From a virus, in the IMG/VR virus record IMGVR_UViG_3300011114_000614, positions 1 to 34,328 of that record: a DNA stretch of 34,328 bases. The stretch is one strand, 5' to 3'. A program made the translations under genes and the position numbers. The number at the start of each line of letters is the position of its first letter. Position 1 is the stretch's first letter. Under the pieces are notes generated by a model that was given only the letters and a program-made list of their open reading frames with translations, searched no databases and was not told where the DNA came from. This document shows positions 2,105-34,328 of this stretch, in pieces.

Positions 2105-2313
2105 AAGCCTATCCCTTTATTCACAAAGACCCTACCTCTGGCCTAACACGCATGGAAGAAGGAATGGATTTGCGGGACTATTTCGCAGGTTTGGCAATGC
2201 AAGGTATGTTTCATCAAGGCAGCAACGTACCTGAATTGATGGCAAAGAATGCCTACAAAATGGCAGATTGGATGATGGCAGAACGAACAAAAAAGGATGT
2301 TCCAAATGAGTAA
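2101..2313 (+). CDS. Conserved small phage protein, 70 residues
   Basis: Starts at ATG 2101 with a 4-base overlap with the upstream gene. The sequence has the pattern GMDLRDYFAGLAMQGM followed by an amphipathic helix (AYKMADWMMAER). This pattern recurs in many small proteins of phages and prophages of Proteobacteria; its function has not been established as far as I know. It ends 8 bases into the RecT-like gene, whose ribosome site lies within its last codons. Confidence 0.7.
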   Translation: MKAYPFIHKDPTSGLTRMEEGMDLRDYFAGLAMQGMFHQGSNVPELMAKNAYKMADWMMAERTKKDVPNE

Positions 2314-3166
2314 TATCGTAGCGTTTAATGACATGCAGCAGATGGCAGAGGTTGCCGCTGGTAGCAAGATGTTCGGGTTCAAGAACACGCAGGAAGCAAT
2401 GGCAATCATGCTGTTGTGTCAAGCAGAGAACCTACACCCCGCAGTGGCTATGCGTGACTTTCATGTCATCCAAGGCCGTCCTGCTCTCAAAGCAGATGCA
2501 ATGCTTGCCAGATTTCAACAGGCAGGTGGAACAGTTAACTGGAAGGAATATACAGATGAGAAAGTCACAGGCTTGTTTAGCCATCCAGCGGGCGGCACAC
2601 TTGAACTTAGCTGGACACTTGCTCAGGCTAAAGCCATTGGCATCGCCAGTAAGGATAACTGGAAGAACTATCCAAGAGCGATGCTACGTGCGAGAGTTAT
2701 CTCTGAAGGCATTCGTTCCGTCTTCCCAGGGTGCGTTGTCGGGGTTTACACGCCTGAAGAGGTACAAGATTTTGAACCACCCAAGGAGAAATTCATGGGG
2801 AGTGTGGAGCGGGTGGAGGACGTATATACGTTTGAACCTCCTGAACGTGTTGAGGACGGCGCATTCCCGCTACAAGTACCAGGCACTGACCAGCCGTATT
2901 CGAGGTTCTCTTCAACCGAGGATTGGATAAGCGGCTATGCAGAAATGGTTTCACGCATTGCAAACAGTAAAAAGCTCACTCTGGAGGAAAAGGCAGACAA
3001 GCTCTCCTCACTTGCCGAGTGCAACAAGCCTGTTACAGAAAACTTCAACACTCTGGACAAAGTCAAACTCAAAGGAGCAATCGTCCAAGCTGGAGGAACA
3101 GTCTCCCCAAAGCCCGACAAGTCCCAACCACTTCCCGATTCGGGACTCAGCGAGCCAATATTTTGA
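2306..3166 (+). CDS. recT: RecT-like single-strand annealing protein
   Basis: A 286-residue protein with the core of RecT-family annealing proteins. It has an N-terminal helical segment (AMAIMLLCQAENLHPAVAMR, about 31-50), then DFHVIQGRPALKADAMLARF (51-70), and a tryptophan/arginine-rich segment with NWKNYPRAMLRARVISEGIR (about 118-137). The proline-rich linker after residue 155 and the helical C-terminus are more variable. RecT proteins coat the 3' single strands left by the exonuclease and anneal them to complementary DNA. ATG 2306 is preferred to 2297 because AAAAGG lies 9 bases before it and would be too close to 2297. Pairing with the nuclease at 1014 makes a Red/RecET-type module. Confidence 0.85.
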   Translation: MSNIVAFNDMQQMAEVAAGSKMFGFKNTQEAMAIMLLCQAENLHPAVAMRDFHVIQGRPALKADAMLARFQQAGGTVNWKEYTDEKVTGLFSHPAGGTLELSWTLAQAKAIGIASKDNWKNYPRAMLRARVISEGIRSVFPGCVVGVYTPEEVQDFEPPKEKFMGSVERVEDVYTFEPPERVEDGAFPLQVPGTDQPYSRFSSTEDWISGYAEMVSRIANSKKLTLEEKADKLSSLAECNKPVTENFNTLDKVKLKGAIVQAGGTVSPKPDKSQPLPDSGLSEPIF

Positions 3167-21830: not shown

Positions 21831-22832
21831 TTACAGTGAGAGGTAGTTGTAACCAGTCACCTTGGTCATTGACTTAGGCTTGACGTTCACCAATTCGGCA
21901 ATCATCAAAACTGCGCCAACGTAACCAATTTGCCAGTTCGGGAGTGTGGACTCAAAGCCTGTAAACACAAACGAACCTTGCTCATGGATGTACAGAGACA
22001 TGTAGTTAGTGTTCAGGAAGTACACAGTACCTTCAGGGCAGTACGGGTCTGGATAGATAGGAACGCCAGCAACCATCAAAGCACGGAACGCTGCTTGAGG
22101 GCCATTTGCGTCACCGTCAAAACCGCCACCTGGGGTGATGACATATTGCTCTTGACCTACGAAGTCTTGAGCCAACAGTGTCCAAGTACCAAAGCCGCAA
22201 ACACCAAACGAAGGCATTTCAGCACCGTTTTTCACAGTACCAGAAATGTATTGCAGGATGTTTTGACGAGTTGGGTTCACAGAGCCAGCGGCATACTGTG
22301 TGGACTTCCACCAAGTATAGGTAGAGCGGTCAATGTTGCCGTATGTGCCTGAGTTGGCAACAGCGGCAGGAAGACCGATAAACTGCTGTGTGTTGGTAGT
22401 GTTGGTGTACAAAGCGGTAGCCATTGCATCCATCATGACGTTAGTCGCATCGTTCATGCGAGCTTCAATCAAAGGGATGATGGCAGCGTCTTGCTGAACT
22501 GCGCCTTCCATACCAAGGAACGGCACGGGAGAAATCATCAGTTTCAGGTCAAACTCAGCGTTGTAAGCACCTTGCTGGACTGACGGTTGAGCGAACGAGC
22601 CGCTGTAGTCAGACCATTGAGCGTTCACAAACTGTGCGCCTTGGACAGGAACGGTTACGGAAGACACACCGCCAGAGGCTTGCTGACTGTTGGCAATCAG
22701 AGCCGCCATGAGGGGTGTCGAGTTATAAAGCTGGACAACCAGCTTGGGGATGAAGGCTCTACGAGTAACGTAGGTCAGTTCGTTAAACTGTGCTGACCCT
22801 GTTGCTGGTAGGATGCCGCCGCCAATAGCCAT
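21831..22832 (-). CDS. Major capsid protein
   Basis: A 333-residue protein with the strongest ribosome site in the window (AAGGAGG just before ATG 22832), as expected for the most abundant virion protein. It begins MAIGGGILPATGSAQFNELT, then FIPKLVVQLYNSTPLMAALI, and contains a Gly/Ser-rich segment SSVTVPVQGAQFVNAQW and a C-terminal sheet (GVPIYPDPYCPEGTVYFLN, then MSLYIHEQGSFVF). This agrees with HK97-fold capsids of podovirus-like aquatic phages. It is preceded by scaffold and followed by small virion proteins. There is no fused protease. Confidence 0.85.
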   Translation of the reverse strand: MAIGGGILPATGSAQFNELTYVTRRAFIPKLVVQLYNSTPLMAALIANSQQASGGVSSVTVPVQGAQFVNAQWSDYSGSFAQPSVQQGAYNAEFDLKLMISPVPFLGMEGAVQQDAAIIPLIEARMNDATNVMMDAMATALYTNTTNTQQFIGLPAAVANSGTYGNIDRSTYTWWKSTQYAAGSVNPTRQNILQYISGTVKNGAEMPSFGVCGFGTWTLLAQDFVGQEQYVITPGGGFDGDANGPQAAFRALMVAGVPIYPDPYCPEGTVYFLNTNYMSLYIHEQGSFVFTGFESTLPNWQIGYVGAVLMIAELVNVKPKSMTKVTGYNYLSL

Positions 22833-22861: not shown

Positions 22862-23392
22862 TTACAACCCAATAGGACGCTGCGGTTTCCGCAGGTCATT
22901 GAGCGCATTCATTGCCTCGTTACGAGCAGCGGCTGCTGGATTCTTCCAATACTTGTTCAAGTCAAATTGCTTGACAGCACTTGGGTTGTATCCAGTTGAA
23001 GTAGGCACTGCTGCTTGCTTCATCCACTGATGGTACTCAGCGGCTGTCTCATGGTTTGTGATACCACGTTCCAGCATAATTTTTTCTACGTCATTAACTT
23101 CTGACTCGTTGGCAATCAAACCTTTACGCATCAAAGACTGACGGCGTTTCTGCAATTCTTCAACTGCATCACGCTCACGCAATTTGGCTTCCAAGGCTTG
23201 CACACGGTCTTCAGAACGGGTAACCGCCCGATTGGTGTAGTCCTCAATATCCAACTCAGGGATTGGCAAGTCAGGTTTAACCCGCTTGGTCATCCGCAAG
23301 AAGTCTTTGCGAGTATCAGGATTTTCCGCAAGAGTTTGAGCAAGCTGCGCCAACTCATCACGGGCTTCTAAGGACAGATTTTCTAATGACAT
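22862..23392 (-). CDS. Scaffolding protein
   Basis: A 176-residue, charged, helical protein (LSLEARDELAQLAQTLAENP, then DRVQALEAKLRERDAVEELQ) with a Lys/Asn/Pro-containing C-terminus (YWKNPAAAARNEAMNALNDL). It lies 30 bases ahead of the capsid gene. Size, high charge, coiled-coil character and position match assembly scaffolds, which fill the prohead and leave before DNA packaging. The basic C-terminal helix is the part that in other scaffolds contacts the capsid. Confidence 0.78.
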   Translation of the reverse strand: MSLENLSLEARDELAQLAQTLAENPDTRKDFLRMTKRVKPDLPIPELDIEDYTNRAVTRSEDRVQALEAKLRERDAVEELQKRRQSLMRKGLIANESEVNDVEKIMLERGITNHETAAEYHQWMKQAAVPTSTGYNPSAVKQFDLNKYWKNPAAAARNEAMNALNDLRKPQRPIGL

Positions 23393-23605: not shown

Positions 23606-24088
23606 TTACATTGGGGGAGGAGGAGGCATACCGCCAGGTGGGGGAGGCATACCTCCACCAGCGGGAGGCATACCAGGGATAGGTGCTTGAGCCATTGCTT
23701 TACCTTCAGGGGTAGCACCACCCGCCTGTGGCAAGGTTTGGAGCATCTGAAGAATTTCAGACTGCTGGAGTTCGTTGGTCTTGCCTTTACGTGGGCCAAT
23801 CAAACCAGACAGTTGGCGAATGGCGTTCAAGGCTTTTTGTCCTTCGGCTGATTCTGAGCCAAGGGCGGGAAGAGATTGCTCCAGCAAGTCCATTGCCATA
23901 CTGATGTTGATGAGAGCGGCTTCTTTGCTTCCCATCTTTGGCTCAGGCGTAGACATGGGGGATGCCATTGGAGGCGTTTCCGCATCAGACATTGCACCAG
24001 TTGGCAATTCTTCTGGCATAGGAGCAGCAGCACCCGCTGAACGGTTGCCCTTCATTAACTCCATCAACTTATCTGTTGGAACACTCAT
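23606..24088 (-). CDS. Head-cluster protein with proline/glycine/methionine-rich tail
   Basis: A 160-residue protein; ATG 24088 has AAGGAG five bases upstream, better than the GTG at 24094. The middle is helical (EAALINISMAMDLLEQSLPA, later KGKTNELQQSEILQMLQTLP), while the C-terminus is a run of GGMPPPP-type units. It lies between the portal and scaffold genes, where podoviruses often encode small head or portal-linked proteins. A role as minor capsid or portal chaperone is possible only by position. Confidence 0.6.
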   Translation of the reverse strand: MSVPTDKLMELMKGNRSAGAAAPMPEELPTGAMSDAETPPMASPMSTPEPKMGSKEAALINISMAMDLLEQSLPALGSESAEGQKALNAIRQLSGLIGPRKGKTNELQQSEILQMLQTLPQAGGATPEGKAMAQAPIPGMPPAGGGMPPPPGGMPPPPPM

Positions 24089-24138
24089 AATCACTCCTTG
24101 CCGTGTTTGTAACCACTTACTTACACTTTGTCAATAGG

Positions 24139-24164
24139 TGGGGGGCTTTTATGTCTGCCCCCCA
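24139..24164 (-). other. Strong G/C hairpin upstream of the Pro-rich head gene
   Basis: TGGGGGGC (24139-24146) and GCCCCCCA (24157-24164) form a perfect 8-base-pair stem with a 10-base loop; TTGTC/GACAA at 24128-24132 and 24166-24170 can extend it. There is no T-run on either side, so it is not a simple terminator. It lies about 50 bases before the start of the head gene at 24088, in the leader after the second micropeptide, and may act in mRNA processing, stability or translation. Confidence 0.6.
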
Positions 24165-24181
24165 AGACAAATCCCTAAGGA

Positions 24182-24223
24182 TTACTTGCGGCTTTTACGG
24201 CCTTTGCGAGCTTTGCGTGCCAT
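24182..24223 (-). CDS. Basic micropeptide 2, 13 residues (MARKARKGRKSRK)
   Basis: A complete 13-codon frame, MARKARKGRKSRK, with a textbook ribosome site (AAAGGAG, spacing 7). Nine of 13 residues are Lys or Arg. It is the twin of a second 13-residue peptide 78 bases upstream in the operon (24302-24343). The DNA between them and after it carries hairpins rather than other genes. Two such frames in tandem, same length and charge, are unlikely by chance. By analogy with basic packaging peptides such as protein J of phiX174, they could neutralise DNA in the head; that is inference. Confidence 0.6.
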   Translation of the reverse strand: MARKARKGRKSRK

Positions 24224-24280
24224 GGTGTTTCTCCTTTAGCAGCGGTCACCTACTTCACAGGGGAGGCAGCCACACCCTTT

Positions 24281-24296
24281 TTTCCTTTTCAGGAAA
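24281..24296 (-). other. Small hairpin between the two micropeptide genes
   Basis: TTTCCT (24281-24286) and AGGAAA (24291-24296) form a perfect 6-base-pair stem with a 4-base loop, in the 78-base spacer between the two 13-codon genes. It is AT-rich and lacks a T-run on the transcribed strand, so it is not a convincing terminator; it may separate translation of the two peptides. Confidence 0.4.
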
Positions 24297-24301
24297 CCGA
24301 A

Positions 24302-24343
24302 TTAACGGCGGTGTTTACGACCACGTTTTGCCATTTTGTACAT
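24302..24343 (-). CDS. Basic micropeptide 1, 13 residues (MYKMAKRGRKHRR)
   Basis: A 13-codon frame, MYKMAKRGRKHRR, with CAGGAG six bases before its ATG and only two bases after the stop of the 55-residue gene upstream. An internal ATG (24334) would give MAKRGRKHRR, closer to the start of the twin peptide. Seven of 13 residues are Lys or Arg, with one His. Shared length and the A(K/R)(K/R)-GRK-x-R core with 24182-24223 suggest duplication. It lies just downstream of the portal gene, where a DNA-packaging or capsid-interior role would be timely. Confidence 0.58.
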   Translation of the reverse strand: MYKMAKRGRKHRR

Positions 24344-24345
24344 GT

Positions 24346-24513
24346 TCAACTCCTGGTTGGTGAGCGGTTGGAATCCCTTTGACTCCTCCCATACGATGTT
24401 TTATACCCAGTTTGACGCATTGTCAAGTTAGGACTCGCTTCGCTTCTTTTCAGCGAATCTGTTGACGCTCTGGGTTGGTCAGCTTTTGGGGCTGTCATTG
24501 CTTGTGTTGCCAT
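24346..24513 (-). CDS. 55-residue Ser/Arg-rich protein after the portal gene
   Basis: Two adjacent ATGs (24516 and 24513) overlap the portal stop codon, with AAAGG upstream. The frame encodes MATQAMTAPKADQPRASTD, then SLKRSEASPNLTMRQTG and a Ser/Arg/Tyr-rich tail ending SNRSPTRS. It is basic and probably unfolded. It ends two bases before the first micropeptide start, so the frame fills the space exactly, which favours a real gene; the embedded promoter-like sequence at 24400-24426 could instead explain the spacing. No family is known. Confidence 0.45.
   Translation of the reverse strand: MATQAMTAPKADQPRASTDSLKRSEASPNLTMRQTGYKTSYGRSQRDSNRSPTRS
24400..24426 (-). promoter_or_regulatory. Promoter-like element ahead of the micropeptides and capsid genes
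   Basis: On the minus strand TTGACA (24421-24426) is followed after 15 bases by TATAAA (24400-24405). Both hexamers are near-perfect but the spacing is short. An inverted repeat, TTGAC-N5-GTCAA, spans the -35 box (24412-24426). It would give separate, strong transcription of the micropeptides, scaffold and capsid genes. It lies within the 55-codon frame at 24346-24513. Confidence 0.35.
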
Positions 24514-26159
24514 CATCCCACCTTTTTCAAATCAGGTTTACCCTCTGATTTAGGAGGCTGCTGTTGCTTTTGGGCTTGCTGTTGCTCTTGAGCTTTGGCT
24601 TGTTTTTCTTCCATCTTCTTCAGCCGTTCCTTGAGCAATTGTTTCATTGGGGGCTCAATCAAGTCAAGCAAGGATTCTTTGTCAATGACACCCGCTTGGA
24701 AAAGCTCAAATGCTAGCTTTCGGCTGTCTTCCATGAAAATCGGGCTGTTGGAGTGGGCATCCACCTTGACTACATAGTCTTTGGTGAACTGTTCAGGGAT
24801 AAATTTTCTGCCTTCGGTGTCTGTCAGGTGTGTCTTGTCGTAGGCTTGCATACACTTGAGGTACAGGGTAGCCAGCTTCTCTAGACTGTCCTCAATGACA
24901 AGGGCACGTTTCTTTGCACGGCTTGAGCCTAGACGGGCAAGCTGTGAGGCGTGACCTGACGAGCGTACACCTGCTTCGCCACGGCCTTGCAAGACGCTGA
25001 CAATGCCAGATGCTTCTTCAAACATCAGGTCAATCTCGCCAATCTCTTTGAACAAATCTGGCGGCATAGTGGGTGCTAACTTCTCTACCTTGGCATTGGG
25101 CATATCAGTTGCCAGCAAGCCACCTGCACGGTTGAGAGCAAAGTTCTTCTCGTCCAGAATGCCAGTAAAGCCAATCAGGGCGGTAGGTGGGCTGACTTGT
25201 TTGGCGAGCATGTCCAAAATCTCAGACATCCGCTTGTTGCGGAGTTGCTGAAGGTAGACCAGACGCTGAACTTCAGATGAACCCCAGTAGTAGTCATACA
25301 AAGGGTTAGGACAGATTTGGACAAAAGGCAATTCGCCTTTCAAGAACATGGACTCGCCTGAGCGGTCATAGATGATGACATCAGGGTCAGCCTTGGTGAC
25401 AACCTGGTAATCCTTGGTTTCATCATTCCACACCCAGAGTTCAATCATCTCTATGGTGTCTTCGGAAACGGTGGCCTTGTACTTGGGGTTACCGTTCAGG
25501 TCAAGGTTGACGTTGCCGTACATGGTAGGGTTGGACTGCGACATGATGATGCGCTGAACCCCGTTGGCAACTTCTGTTCTTTCGTGCTGAGTAGAAGTGA
25601 CACGCTTGACAATTTGCTCACGCTGCGGGTGGCTGTACAGGCGGTCAAAGAGTTCAGACTTGGTGATGTAGTAAGTCTGGACGATGGCCTCTTGTCTGTC
25701 AGAGTACGGGATGTCTTCACGCAACACGCCCATGCTTGCTGGCTCAACCATGTACGGGTGGATACCGTTGTTGATAACCAGTTTGACAAAGGTGGTGTTG
25801 TAGTCCAGTGCCCACGTGACAGCGGTGGAGAACACCTGGTCAGCATTGGAGTTGAGCCACTCGTCATGCAGGGCTTTTGTGAGGGCTGGAATCTTGATGT
25901 GTTCTTGGTCAGGGACGGCAGCACCAGTGTTGATGCTGAATCGTGTGGTTTCCGCTGAGTAGAGGAACGAGGTCAGTTGGTCAATGTGCGGATAGATTTT
26001 GTTGTACAGAGCGGGAACGTCATCAGGGCCATTGCCGAACAGATAAAAAGAACGCAGGGATGCGTAATCTACTTTTCTTTCCTCACGACTGACCAGACAT
26101 TTCTGAATCAGGTCAAGGTAAAAAAGTTCACGGTCAACTGGGTTCTTGGGGATTCTCAT
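24513..26159 (-). CDS. Portal protein
   Basis: A 548-residue protein with portal-type order: an N-terminal helical part (ELFYLDLIQKCLVSREERKV), a wing region (YNKIYPHIDQLTSFLYSAET), strands around MVEPASMGVLREDIPYSDRQ, a crown-side helical segment (YLQQLRNKRMSEILDMLAKQ; GIVSVLQGRGEAGVRSSGHA) and a Gln/Lys-rich coiled-coil tail (MEEKQAKAQEQQQAQKQQQP). Twelve copies form the DNA channel at the packaging vertex. It shares ATGA with the upstream zinc-binding gene and is followed by the small basic genes. Length is normal for a podovirus portal. Confidence 0.8.
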   Translation of the reverse strand: MRIPKNPVDRELFYLDLIQKCLVSREERKVDYASLRSFYLFGNGPDDVPALYNKIYPHIDQLTSFLYSAETTRFSINTGAAVPDQEHIKIPALTKALHDEWLNSNADQVFSTAVTWALDYNTTFVKLVINNGIHPYMVEPASMGVLREDIPYSDRQEAIVQTYYITKSELFDRLYSHPQREQIVKRVTSTQHERTEVANGVQRIIMSQSNPTMYGNVNLDLNGNPKYKATVSEDTIEMIELWVWNDETKDYQVVTKADPDVIIYDRSGESMFLKGELPFVQICPNPLYDYYWGSSEVQRLVYLQQLRNKRMSEILDMLAKQVSPPTALIGFTGILDEKNFALNRAGGLLATDMPNAKVEKLAPTMPPDLFKEIGEIDLMFEEASGIVSVLQGRGEAGVRSSGHASQLARLGSSRAKKRALVIEDSLEKLATLYLKCMQAYDKTHLTDTEGRKFIPEQFTKDYVVKVDAHSNSPIFMEDSRKLAFELFQAGVIDKESLLDLIEPPMKQLLKERLKKMEEKQAKAQEQQQAQKQQQPPKSEGKPDLKKVG

Positions 26160-26664: not shown

Positions 26665-27054
26665 TTACCCCCTTAGTGCTTCGTCAAGTGAAATTTCGCT
26701 GTAATCGTGCCTGTTTACCATCCCAACCTTAACTTTTATGCCTTTTGAGGTTACTTGTAGCCCCATTTTGGGCATAAACACGGGCTGAGATTCTTTTCTG
26801 TAGTCCACATAGCGGGTGTTGTCACGGCGTTTCATGACCTTTACGTTACCTGCTTTCCACTGTTGATAGGCTTTACTGACCCTACGCTGGACGTTTTCGG
26901 TCAGTGGTTCACGGTTGTAGATGAATACATCATGGAAATGCCCATGACTTATGCCAGCAAGTTCGGCAAAAAGGGCAATAGAGATGCCTCTTTCCTTGTC
27001 AGCGTAGAACCGCTGCATGTGTTTTGTCAGTTCACGCTTGGATAACGGTGTCAT
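26665..27054 (-). CDS. HTH DNA-binding protein, candidate small terminase
   Basis: A 129-residue basic protein. A helix-turn-helix lies around residues 22-47 (RGISIALFAELAGISHGHFH, then DVFIYNREPLTENVQRRV). A basic stretch follows (VKVMKRRDNTRYVDYRK) and a short C-terminal sheet (KGIKVKVGMVNRHDYSEISL). It is encoded in the packaging cluster, two genes downstream of the large terminase, and is the best candidate here for a DNA-recognising small terminase. A late transcription regulator is an equally possible reading. Its start overlaps the upstream gene by 23 bases. Confidence 0.55.
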   Translation of the reverse strand: MTPLSKRELTKHMQRFYADKERGISIALFAELAGISHGHFHDVFIYNREPLTENVQRRVSKAYQQWKAGNVKVMKRRDNTRYVDYRKESQPVFMPKMGLQVTSKGIKVKVGMVNRHDYSEISLDEALRG

Positions 27055-27838
27055 ATTGGTACTCCACGGTGTAACCTATGCTCTGCAACCACAACATAAA
27101 CCCTACTTCCCCGTGTGATTTTTTGGGGTCAACGGGTACAACGATGTGGTTAGTGCTTACTAACTTCCTTGATTGGGCGTGATGACCAAGCAACCCGCCA
27201 AAGTTAAAGCCCTCTTCGTGAAAGCCATGCCCTACATACTCAATGCTGAAGTTTTTAGCAATGTCATCAGGACAGTACTTATAACCAAAAGATTGAAGAG
27301 TTGGTTTCAATATAGCTGAAAGTTGGGCATCTTCATTCCAGCCGTGTATCTCATTGCTGTTCAGGTGCACGATGCCATGTTTGTTACAGGCTTCAAGGAA
27401 TCTTTTGCTTCTTAAAGAGAAACCGCCGTTCTGGACAACTTTCACTGGTTCTTTTGCCTGTGTCCAAGCAAACTGTAGGTACAGGTTGCCTTCCCCAAAC
27501 GCACAGTGAGATGGTGCACCTATGTAATCGTAGTCATAGTATTCAGGCTTGAAGTTCTCTCCGTTCAACACCCACCCATCATCTTGGACAACAAGGCAGT
27601 AGTCTGTCTCTATAAAGGCGTACAGGCAGTGCATCATGAACAGGGAATACCCTAAGTAGTCTATAGGGTTGCACCGCTTCCAGACTACATTGCTTGGCAG
27701 GTTGGGTGGCTCTTCTATAGAGATAAGTAAGCCCTTACTACCAGGCAACTCCTTCATGCTCTTGACGATGGAGGGTATGGCAGATGCGCCGTTGTTGTGT
27801 CCGTAGACAGAAACAATAGTGAGTTGATTATGAACCAT
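27032..27838 (-). CDS. DUF5672-like glycosyltransferase
   Basis: A 268-residue protein; ATG 27838 with AAAAGG upstream is preferred over a TTG at 27847. It has the DUF5672/GT-A pattern: LTIVSVYGHNNGASAIPSIV at the start, TDYCLVVQDDGWVLNG (acidic QDD) as the probable metal/sugar-nucleotide motif, YDYIGAPSH, then VQNGGFSLRSKRFLEACNK and WNEDAQLS (acidic catalytic side). This is the second glycosyltransferase in the genome, but it lies within the structural operon between large terminase and the HTH gene and overlaps the terminase by 11 bases. It may glycosylate a virion component or a surface glycan. Confidence 0.75.
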   Translation of the reverse strand: MVHNQLTIVSVYGHNNGASAIPSIVKSMKELPGSKGLLISIEEPPNLPSNVVWKRCNPIDYLGYSLFMMHCLYAFIETDYCLVVQDDGWVLNGENFKPEYYDYDYIGAPSHCAFGEGNLYLQFAWTQAKEPVKVVQNGGFSLRSKRFLEACNKHGIVHLNSNEIHGWNEDAQLSAILKPTLQSFGYKYCPDDIAKNFSIEYVGHGFHEEGFNFGGLLGHHAQSRKLVSTNHIVVPVDPKKSHGEVGFMLWLQSIGYTVEYQYDTVIQA

Positions 27839-29582
27839 ACATGCCAATCCTTTTCAAATAATCAGAAACATTTCTACCGACAGCAATCTGTTCAGGGGTG
27901 TAGGACTCTTGAGAGGCACTGACGGCACGGGTAATCTTTTGGGCAATGAGGCGAGGCTGAATCTGTTCGGCATAGGCTACGGCAGCCAACGCAGATGCGA
28001 TGACCCTGTCATCCTTGCCACGACCAGGTGCGCCTATAAAGCCGTTCTCCCGCACGATGCCTTTCATTTCCTCTAAGGTATCCATGCTGAGAATGCCCAT
28101 CATGCCCCGCTCAAAATAGTCTTTCATATACTGCAACATGCGTTCCTTGCTGTTGCTGGTGGTCAGGTAGCCTATGCTGTTGGAGAGGCCACCAAGGGTG
28201 TCATTCCTGCGCCAGATGTAGTTCTGCATACTGCCAAGTACGTCCATCAAGTCCCGCCCTTGTGCGCCGCCCATACTGGTTGCCAAGCGTTTAAGGTTAC
28301 GCAACTCATTGATGACGGCTTGCCCTGGGCCATTGACTTCCAAGTTCAGGGTTGAGTTCTTGTATGCGCCAGCAAGGTGGGCGATGACCCACGCAAACTG
28401 GTAGGTGTTGAGTTCAGAGGTTGCAAACTCTGCTACTTGGTCAAGACCATCCGCATAGCAGCGGAAGACTTGGATACAAAACCTGTCAGCCCAATCACTA
28501 CTACCGTAGGCAGGGTCAGCACCAATGACGTAGTAGGCAGTGTCTACAGGCTCTTCCCATACCTTAAGAGTACCCAGACGCTCAGTAGAGCGCAACACAT
28601 CTGTGTCTTGGAAGAGTTGACCAAACGCATACCTGTAGTAATCACAGTCTGTCTTCTTGCTTGTCTTGGCAGCTTCTGTACAGCGGGTGTGTGAGAAGAA
28701 AGAAGTGCCTGTCATGACAAAGGCATAGTCTTCAGTGGGTGGAAACTCTTGGTACATCAGGGCATCGTCTTTGATACCCTCGTACATCTTCCACCGCCAC
28801 CACGCCATCTGACGGGAATTGATTTCAAAGCCGTAGAGCTTCTTAATATCTTTGTGCCATTCTTTCTCTTCACCTGTCAACTTGCCATCCCAGTACACCT
28901 TGTAGATGTTGGAGTCGGCAGGGACTTGGTAATACTCGTTACGCCACCAACCGCAGAAGATTGCACGTTGTGTCTTTGCTCGCTTGGCAACCTTGTACAT
29001 GTCGTGGAACATGTTAAAGCCTTGAGCCGTACTTTCAAACATGTACAGCCTCTCTGCATTCTTTTCAGCAAGAGAAGCTATCAGTGAGGCCAATCCTTCC
29101 TCGTTACCCCATGAGGCAGTTTCAGTGCCGTGCAAATAGGTGATGGCCTTACCCTGACCCAGACGAGATTTGTTGCCAGCAATTTGGTAGAACAGACGGC
29201 TTCTGTTTTTCAACACCATCTGGTTTCTGTTGTGGGCTACGAGAGGTATCTTATATTCTTTAGGTAGACCCTCAATGTACATGGCAAGCGTTGAGCGAAA
29301 CATGTCCCGATTCTCTTCTGTATCAGCCACAAGAGTTCCTTGCCAGCCAGGGTGGGTAAACTGCCAATACAAATCAAGAGCAAGGCTAATGGTAGTAATG
29401 CCCAACTGACGGCCCTTAAGAATGACAAAGAAGTGAACATCTTCATCCAAACCTTTCTGTATCTCATCCATCACATACGTCTGAGTACCAAGTAGCGTAC
29501 CCATCTTTTTCAAGCCTTCCTCTTTTGTCTCAATCTTGAGTTCAGAGCAAAACTTATAAAACTTCTTCAGGTCAAAGTTCAT
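27828..29582 (-). CDS. terL: Terminase large subunit
   Basis: A 584-residue packaging motor. The ATPase has a variant Walker A (LKGRQLGITTIS, residues about 55-66), Walker B near YLHGTETASW (149-158) and a coupling motif FESTAQG (182-188). The nuclease domain has YYVIGADPAYGSSDWADRF (Asp356), LNLEVNGPGQAV (Glu416) and GRGKDDRVIASALA (Asp524/525), the usual acidic triad. It cuts concatemers and pumps DNA through the portal. The protein starts at 29582 with MNFDLKKFYKFCSELKIETK. Its type (cos, pac or terminal repeat) cannot be decided by eye. Confidence 0.9.
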   Translation of the reverse strand: MNFDLKKFYKFCSELKIETKEEGLKKMGTLLGTQTYVMDEIQKGLDEDVHFFVILKGRQLGITTISLALDLYWQFTHPGWQGTLVADTEENRDMFRSTLAMYIEGLPKEYKIPLVAHNRNQMVLKNRSRLFYQIAGNKSRLGQGKAITYLHGTETASWGNEEGLASLIASLAEKNAERLYMFESTAQGFNMFHDMYKVAKRAKTQRAIFCGWWRNEYYQVPADSNIYKVYWDGKLTGEEKEWHKDIKKLYGFEINSRQMAWWRWKMYEGIKDDALMYQEFPPTEDYAFVMTGTSFFSHTRCTEAAKTSKKTDCDYYRYAFGQLFQDTDVLRSTERLGTLKVWEEPVDTAYYVIGADPAYGSSDWADRFCIQVFRCYADGLDQVAEFATSELNTYQFAWVIAHLAGAYKNSTLNLEVNGPGQAVINELRNLKRLATSMGGAQGRDLMDVLGSMQNYIWRRNDTLGGLSNSIGYLTTSNSKERMLQYMKDYFERGMMGILSMDTLEEMKGIVRENGFIGAPGRGKDDRVIASALAAVAYAEQIQPRLIAQKITRAVSASQESYTPEQIAVGRNVSDYLKRIGMYGS

Positions 29583-34019: not shown

Positions 34020-34328
34020 ATTGCCCCTGTGACTACATCCGTACCCCATACGTTAATAAGTGCCCCTGACTGTGGCAGCGTGGGAGAAAAGCGGTTCACC
34101 TTGACCCAAGGGGGACGGGTGCACGAGGGTTCTGCCCCAAGTGATAAACGACCATGTAGGCTGATAGTCAACCGTGGCAACTACGGAATAGTTGGGTCGA
34201 TAAATAAAGCAGCAGAACTGTATACGGGTGTTAGCCCCATACAGGACAACCCCACAAGGTTGAAGGTAGGGACACCGACTAATCATCATCCCTACCGTAG
34301 CCCTTGTATTGTCTAAAGGAAACACACA
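34020..34328 (+). ncRNA. Multi-hairpin structured RNA region (continues through base 128)
   Basis: No gene is supported between the terminator and the start at 129; the 125-codon frame at 33939-34316 has no ribosome site and is judged accidental. At least five stems follow one another: CGACC/GGTCG (34149-34153 / 34195-34199) enclosing CAAC/GTTG and CGT/ACG (or, instead, CAACTA/TAGTTG at 34178-34194); CTGTAT/ATACAG (34218-34244) with GGG/CCC inside; CAACC/GGTTG (34247-34262); GGTAGGG/CCCTACC (34265-34296). An untranslated leader, an RNA antiterminator or a stand-alone RNA are all possible. No known RNA family is recognised. Confidence 0.4.
34202..34328. repeat. Terminal direct repeat, right copy
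   Basis: Exact second copy of bases 1-127. It shows that the sequence downstream of 33907 runs straight into the gene starting at 129, so the right-end and left-end plus-strand genes form one continuous arm on the circle. A true short terminal repeat (as in T7-like phages) would look the same in a contig; read-depth doubling would distinguish the two. Confidence 0.95.

Follow-up and report, generated by a model that had tools for sequence, protein, structure and literature searches.

Two conserved arginine/lysine-rich micro-genes downstream of the portal gene of freshwater podoviruses, and a covarying pseudoknot tied to one of them

Are two frames of only 13 codons beside the portal gene of a phage genuine genes and, if so, what could peptides so short and so basic be doing there? 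The question arises from IMG/VR record IMGVR_UViG_3300011114_000614, whose entire stretch of 34,328 nucleotides (nt) was analysed and is called the window here. The original prediction, made from the letters alone, had placed a tandem pair of Arg/Lys-rich frames on the late strand beside the portal gene and had likened them to the DNA-neutralising packaging peptides of small phages. Both frames, their stops and ribosome sites, the strand and the portal neighbourhood proved to be as described, and the two micro-genes are as follows.

24302..24343, minus strand: peptide 1 gene, MYKMAKRGRKHRR followed by TAA, 13 codons, a conserved frame with a ribosome site.
24350..24354, minus strand: AGGAG, ribosome site of peptide 1; a GGAG/AGGA-type site lies upstream in nearly all relatives.
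24182..24223, minus strand: peptide 2 gene, MARKARKGRKSRK followed by TAA, 13 codons, a conserved frame with a ribosome site.
24231..24235, minus strand: AGGAG, ribosome site of peptide 2, read in the sequence.

Lysine and arginine account for 7-9 of the 13 residues, and these are the sole frames on either strand of the window that begin with ATG, span 10-16 codons, carry a ribosome site and hold at least seven Lys/Arg; a Markov model of the window predicts 0.0025 such frames per strand by chance. To place them among relatives, we examined the surroundings of the portal stop in about 190 loci from the IMG/VR matches listed, calling peptide copy number by a rule of composition plus ribosome site. 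IMG/VR holds hundreds of relatives, and INPHARED only two records with a related portal, neither of which annotates the peptides, in line with the expectation that such frames fall below the cut-off of gene finders. Both frames are present in the window's clade and in most others, about 170 nt past the portal stop and about 110-120 nt apart. The length of exactly 13 codons is true of the window and is not a rule: in relatives peptide 1 mostly spans 12-15 codons and peptide 2 mostly 12-24. The peptide 2 stop is TAA in 143 of 143 cases, and the C-termini read RKxRR and RKxRK almost throughout. The frames and ribosome sites are thus clearly conserved, with neither the lack of conservation nor the frameshifts in close relatives that had been named as speaking against the prediction. 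Two exact-pattern scans of IMG/VR for the peptide cores returned at least 208 loci; among the matches listed, 206 carry a portal, capsid or terminase of the family and the remaining two are 1-kb fragments.

Purifying selection acts on the amino acids. The ratio of non-synonymous to synonymous polymorphism (pN/pS) was 0.25 for peptide 1 (72 unique 8-codon cores) and 0.22 for peptide 2 (35 unique 10-codon cores), the synonymous bias that had been proposed as a check. In the other frames the ratio exceeded 1, save in the antisense frame sharing third positions (0.47 and 0.34). Arginine positions switch among CGT, CGC, CGA, CGG and AGA with the residue unchanged, and this constancy despite CGN/AGA exchange indicates that selection keeps the peptide and not only the nucleotides. 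The identity of Lys or Arg at each position is held about as tightly as at conserved basic columns of the portal protein, and the C-terminal codons are the most conserved part of the micro-genes. Judged by these sequence comparisons, both micro-genes are genuine conserved genes, the part of the original prediction that stood. No earlier description of such peptides, or of the RNA element described below, was found in the literature searched, which agrees with the novelty that had been suspected. The peptide core is RGRK without proline and differs from the RGRP core of AT-hooks, and a PDB sequence search with the 22-residue variant from L125 gave a best E of 2.6, the 13-mers being too short as queries.

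Copy number varies among one, two and three, with three copies in L102 and L150. Peptide 2 stands alone in L101, L104, L132, L134, the L143 group and L146, and peptide 1 alone in L185-L200. Neither is present in one clade (L085, L158-L184, L201-L205), where gene order and capsid protein are retained. In the portal tree this peptide-free clade is a single fully supported group, sister to the peptide-1-only clade, and several separate losses of peptide 1 are seen elsewhere. L118 and L191 carry tree labels that reflect counting artefacts: an insertion has displaced the peptide pair downstream in L118, and the second 'peptide' of L191 falls inside the next gene. Among distant capsid or terminase relatives (Mx9, BUCT555, Bradyrhizobium, Microcystis and Hydrogenobaculum phages, and two Manatee Spring phages) there was no conserved counterpart, merely two weak Lys/Arg-rich frames.

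What the original prediction had missed is a structured RNA element between the two genes, composed in the window of the following parts.

24281..24296, minus strand: P0, a short hairpin TTTCCTGAAAAGGAAA directly past the peptide 1 stop, with a GNRA-type tetraloop in many relatives.
24259..24278, minus strand: P1 of an H-type pseudoknot, AGGG (24275-24278) with CCCT (24259-24262), showing covariation.
24244..24271, minus strand: P2 of the pseudoknot, GGCTGCCT (24264-24271) with AGGTGACC (24244-24251), showing covariation and rewritten helices.

Downstream of P0 the element follows the motif AGGG-TNT-GGCUGNNU-N-CCCU-linker-AGNUGGCC, with a loop 1 of three nt, a loop 2 of one nt and an A-rich loop 3 of 3-9 nt. 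P2 of the window has one C-A mismatch and ends 20 nt before the peptide 2 ATG. In P1, 99% of cells are paired, with pair types AU/GC/UA/CG and GC/AU/CG/UA. A MAFFT alignment that included the variable linker misplaced the 3' arm of P2, and the linker was therefore removed for counting. Across 28 distinct motif rows, 94.3% of cells pair as against 83.5% in shuffles, and two-sided changes amount to 5 pairs and 34 cells as against 2.9 and 9.8, figures biased towards structure by the selection of rows on motif and P1 pairing and of the P2 3' arm on best score. The main covariation evidence lies in P1 columns 1-2 and P2 columns 13-14, which have several pair types each and where slid registers are sharply lower; overall, sliding the register lowers pairing to 32-61%. 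In L130 and L150 the P2 helices are rewritten and yet pair. An H-type pseudoknot is thus supported by covariation across the family. When pseudoknots were sought freely by pairing score alone, real and shuffled sequence could not be told apart; only register-fixed covariation distinguished them. Nested folding of the region was no better than shuffles (z -0.08), as expected where the signal is a pseudoknot. Compared with the Rfam families, riboswitches included, the region gave nothing up to E 5, and in five sources no family reached its gathering score. A potential in-frame start within the element (MAASP...) is not conserved and was set aside.

The element goes with peptide 2. A covariance model of the region (cmsearch) detected the element once in the window and once in each of 93 loci, most of them with two peptides, and also in the peptide-2-only loci listed above, the L143 group scoring weakly (E 0.02-0.04) at the correct location; it found the element in none of the peptide-1-only or peptide-free loci. 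The end of P2 lies 17-24 nt from the peptide 2 start, and 20-22 nt in 57 of 72 loci, with variable sequence in between. Such fixed phasing to the start codon is what initiation control would need, and the tie between pseudoknot and peptide 2 points to translational control. The frame offset from peptide 1 to peptide 2 is random (38/29/28) and read-through is blocked in 81 of 95 loci. The random offsets exclude a recoding signal and rule out a read-through or frameshift fusion of the two peptides, and the absence of a conserved frame relation between the flanking open reading frames (ORFs) sets the element apart from frameshift and read-through pseudoknots.

We tentatively favour, at somewhat less than even confidence, a model in which both micro-genes, closing the terminase-portal transcription unit at its 3' end, would yield basic, nucleic-acid-binding peptides of 12-15 residues late in infection, with translation of peptide 2 controlled, perhaps autogenously, by the pseudoknot. 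Lying about 21 nt ahead of the start codon, the pseudoknot would abut the initiating 30S subunit, a position that suggests control of peptide 2 translation. The charge of the peptides suggests nucleic-acid binding; most likely they would bind phage nucleic acid in head assembly or packaging, a role at which only the gene neighbourhood hints. Position, together with analogy to T4 gene 32 and rpsO, suggests that free peptide might bind the pseudoknot mRNA and limit its own synthesis, as T4 gp32 does. The fuller version, a self-limiting module in which Arg/Lys peptides of 12-15 residues would attach to the phage genome as well as to their own pseudoknot mRNA, is in our judgement unlikely.

T4 gene 32 has an established phage pseudoknot operator bound by a nucleic-acid-binding protein, termed in 2010 possibly the sole viral pseudoknot in translational autoregulation (PMC3014915). 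As in that operator, an H-type pseudoknot lies here upstream of the ribosome site, with peptide binding putative. The differences are a spacer of 17-24 nt without the A+U-rich UUAA-repeat tract, a distance of about 21 nt from the start as against up to 67 nt, and a gene of 13 codons. In E. coli rpsO, the basic RNA-binding protein S15 has a translational operator that holds a pseudoknot (PMC3014915). The product there, unlike here, is a ribosomal protein. The rpsO pseudoknot also includes the ribosome site, which in this phage lies downstream of the pseudoknot.

Several observations weigh against the favoured model. Neither the two genes nor the element occurs in the clade of L158-L184 and L201-L205, whose capsid protein is about 92% identical and whose contigs measure 37-40 kb, so that a packaging role cannot be universally required. 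No pseudoknot accompanies peptide 1, the element went undetected at the peptide-2-like frames of L102 and L156, and a pseudoknot can act without bound peptide. The constancy of Lys and Arg, no stronger than that of the portal, is no proof of specific recognition. Finally, the model is a proposal drawn from sequence comparison.

The alternatives turn largely on where the genes lie, and the relevant neighbours are given below.

24513..26159, minus strand: portal protein (phrog_1216, E 2.6e-9), 75% to MW202825 and MW202753.
24346..24516, minus strand: 56-residue ORF with a KADQPR motif, overlapping the portal stop codon; conserved, and annotated as hypothetical in L003.
24139..24165, minus strand: G+C hairpin without a T run, after peptide 2 (-17.2 kcal/mol, z -2.8).
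24106..24134, minus strand: promoter-like TTGACA-17-TACAAA preceding the 160-residue ORF, scaffold and capsid genes, noted for conservation of TTGACA.
23606-24088, minus strand: 160-residue ORF before the scaffold, neighbour of the peptide 2 gene.
22862-23392, minus strand: likely scaffold, a coiled-coil-like ORF of 176 residues, judged by eye.
21831..22832, minus strand: major capsid protein (phrog_9953, E 3.2e-34), family-wide identity 86-99%.
27032-27847, minus strand: DUF5672 protein (Pfam E 2.4e-17), between terminase and portal.
1014-1907 and 2297-3166, plus strand: RecE-like exonuclease and RecT-like annealing protein, opposite to the late genes.

The minus strand thus holds portal, capsid and terminase genes. 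Between portal and scaffold, where the peptides had been placed, their direct neighbours are the 56-residue and 160-residue ORFs, the likely scaffold lying two genes further on. In the inspected clades the TTGACA box lies downstream of the micro-genes, or of the 56-residue ORF where these are absent, and its counterpart is kept even in clades with no peptide or one. A generic consensus promoter scan did not list the site because its -10 box is poor; its conservation suggests a promoter before the capsid genes, and the terminase-portal unit therefore probably ends with the peptide cistrons. The hairpin downstream of peptide 2 is retained in relatives despite altered stem letters.

This arrangement bears on whether both peptides are packaged in the virion as genome counter-ions, in the manner of microvirus protein J or adenovirus mu, with the pseudoknot only dosing peptide 2. 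Seven to nine Lys/Arg on 12-13 residues, the late strand, the terminase, portal and capsid genes alongside and the 1-3 copies all suit such a role. Encoding in the portal unit, upstream of the promoter-like sequence of the capsid genes, suggests a low dose, however, and one clade with larger contigs has lost the genes tracelessly; keeping Lys or Arg by position is also needless for pure charge. The originally proposed neutralisation of packaged DNA is conjectural; the genes end the terminase-portal unit, whole clades have only one peptide and one clade has none. The DNA-binding protein J of phiX174-like microviruses seems to act as a guide for the genome within the capsid (PMC13386984). Like J, the peptides are tiny, very basic, Lys/Arg-rich and encoded among capsid genes. 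J has a hydrophobic coat-binding C-terminus and serves a single-stranded DNA virus of T=1. The present ones, by contrast, are all-basic 12-15-mers with RKxRR and RKxRK ends in place of a hydrophobic or aromatic tail, losable, and in a tailed double-stranded DNA phage with a packaging motor. The core peptide mu of adenovirus and the internal head peptides of T4 are likewise very short, basic and inside double-stranded DNA capsids, and are proteolysis products of larger precursors, unlike free-standing micro-genes. Virion packaging of this kind is improbable in our view, and a serious contender.

Slightly less probable is that the frames act in cis, translation of the micro-genes or stalling of the basic nascent chains tuning expression or decay of the mRNA while the released peptides are idle. 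The frames are short and lie ahead of structured RNA and a promoter, conservation peaks in their C-terminal codons, and P0 directly follows a stop codon even in loci that have lost peptide 1. A product is the better fit for two compositionally related frames, changing copy number and extension to 22-24 residues, and the terminase-portal unit has nothing directly downstream that needs control, because a separate promoter apparently serves the capsid genes. Arginine-rich peptides directed at the host, binding its RNA, ribosomes or RNA polymerase in the phage's favour, would explain the clade-wise gain and loss as that of an accessory function, and what we take to be a compositional resemblance to arginine-rich RNA-binding motifs would agree; location among packaging genes on the late strand makes this a poor candidate. 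Chance frames are ruled out by the 0.0025 expected per strand, and an antisense gene, despite the lowered antisense ratios and an 86-residue hypothetical ORF annotated opposite in MW202825 (L002, 7779-8039, minus strand; window counterpart 24103-24363, plus strand) that is likely a gene-finder artefact, by the lowest ratio lying in the sense frame and by conserved minus-strand ribosome sites, starts and stops, leaving this explanation a negligible probability.

The surroundings offered further observations. A 127-bp direct repeat stands at 1-127 and 34202-34328 of the window, and terminal direct repeats of 102-127 bp likewise end L024, L042, L095, L108 and L185. The sequences so bounded are probably complete genomes, about 34.2 kb long for the window and 34-37 kb across the set. 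The window phage is a short-tailed freshwater phage, its relatives forming a large family of podoviruses from fresh water; the more distant relatives by capsid include one named podovirus and others with short-tail genes. Hosts are hinted at solely by two metagenome bins, one betaproteobacterial and one alphaproteobacterial, and no cultured host or phage of the family turned up. The capsid protein is unusually conserved (86-99%), whereas the portal drops to about 70% identity across those phages. An ORF of 51-60 residues with the KADQPR motif spans the portal stop in nearly all inspected clades and is unannotated in MW202825, and a relative carries a putative methyltransferase in place of the DUF5672 gene. 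In L166, a 155-residue ORF resembling an HNH-type homing nuclease (by eye) lies 682-1150 after the portal stop, between ORFs of 145 and 60 residues, an insertion not present in its inspected near relatives. The mean net charge of the 160-residue ORF is -4.5 in two-peptide phages vs about -10 to -11 in the basal clades, where peptide 1 stands alone or both peptides are missing, and the peptide-free contigs of L166, L177 and L183 (37.3-39.7 kb) exceed most two-peptide phages; both differences are confounded with phylogeny, and charge compensation by this ORF and a functional link to larger genomes were set aside.

In essence, a large phage family keeps free-standing genes of 12-13 codons, invisible to annotation, under strong selection on their amino acids, and one of these genes comes with its own covarying pseudoknot, which makes a compact and testable peptide-RNA pair. 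They raise the question of what role such peptides have in a phage that packs its DNA by a motor. If true, the self-limiting module would rank with the smallest nucleic-acid-binding genes known to be autoregulated and would give phages an RNA-peptide operator beyond the T4 gene 32 group.
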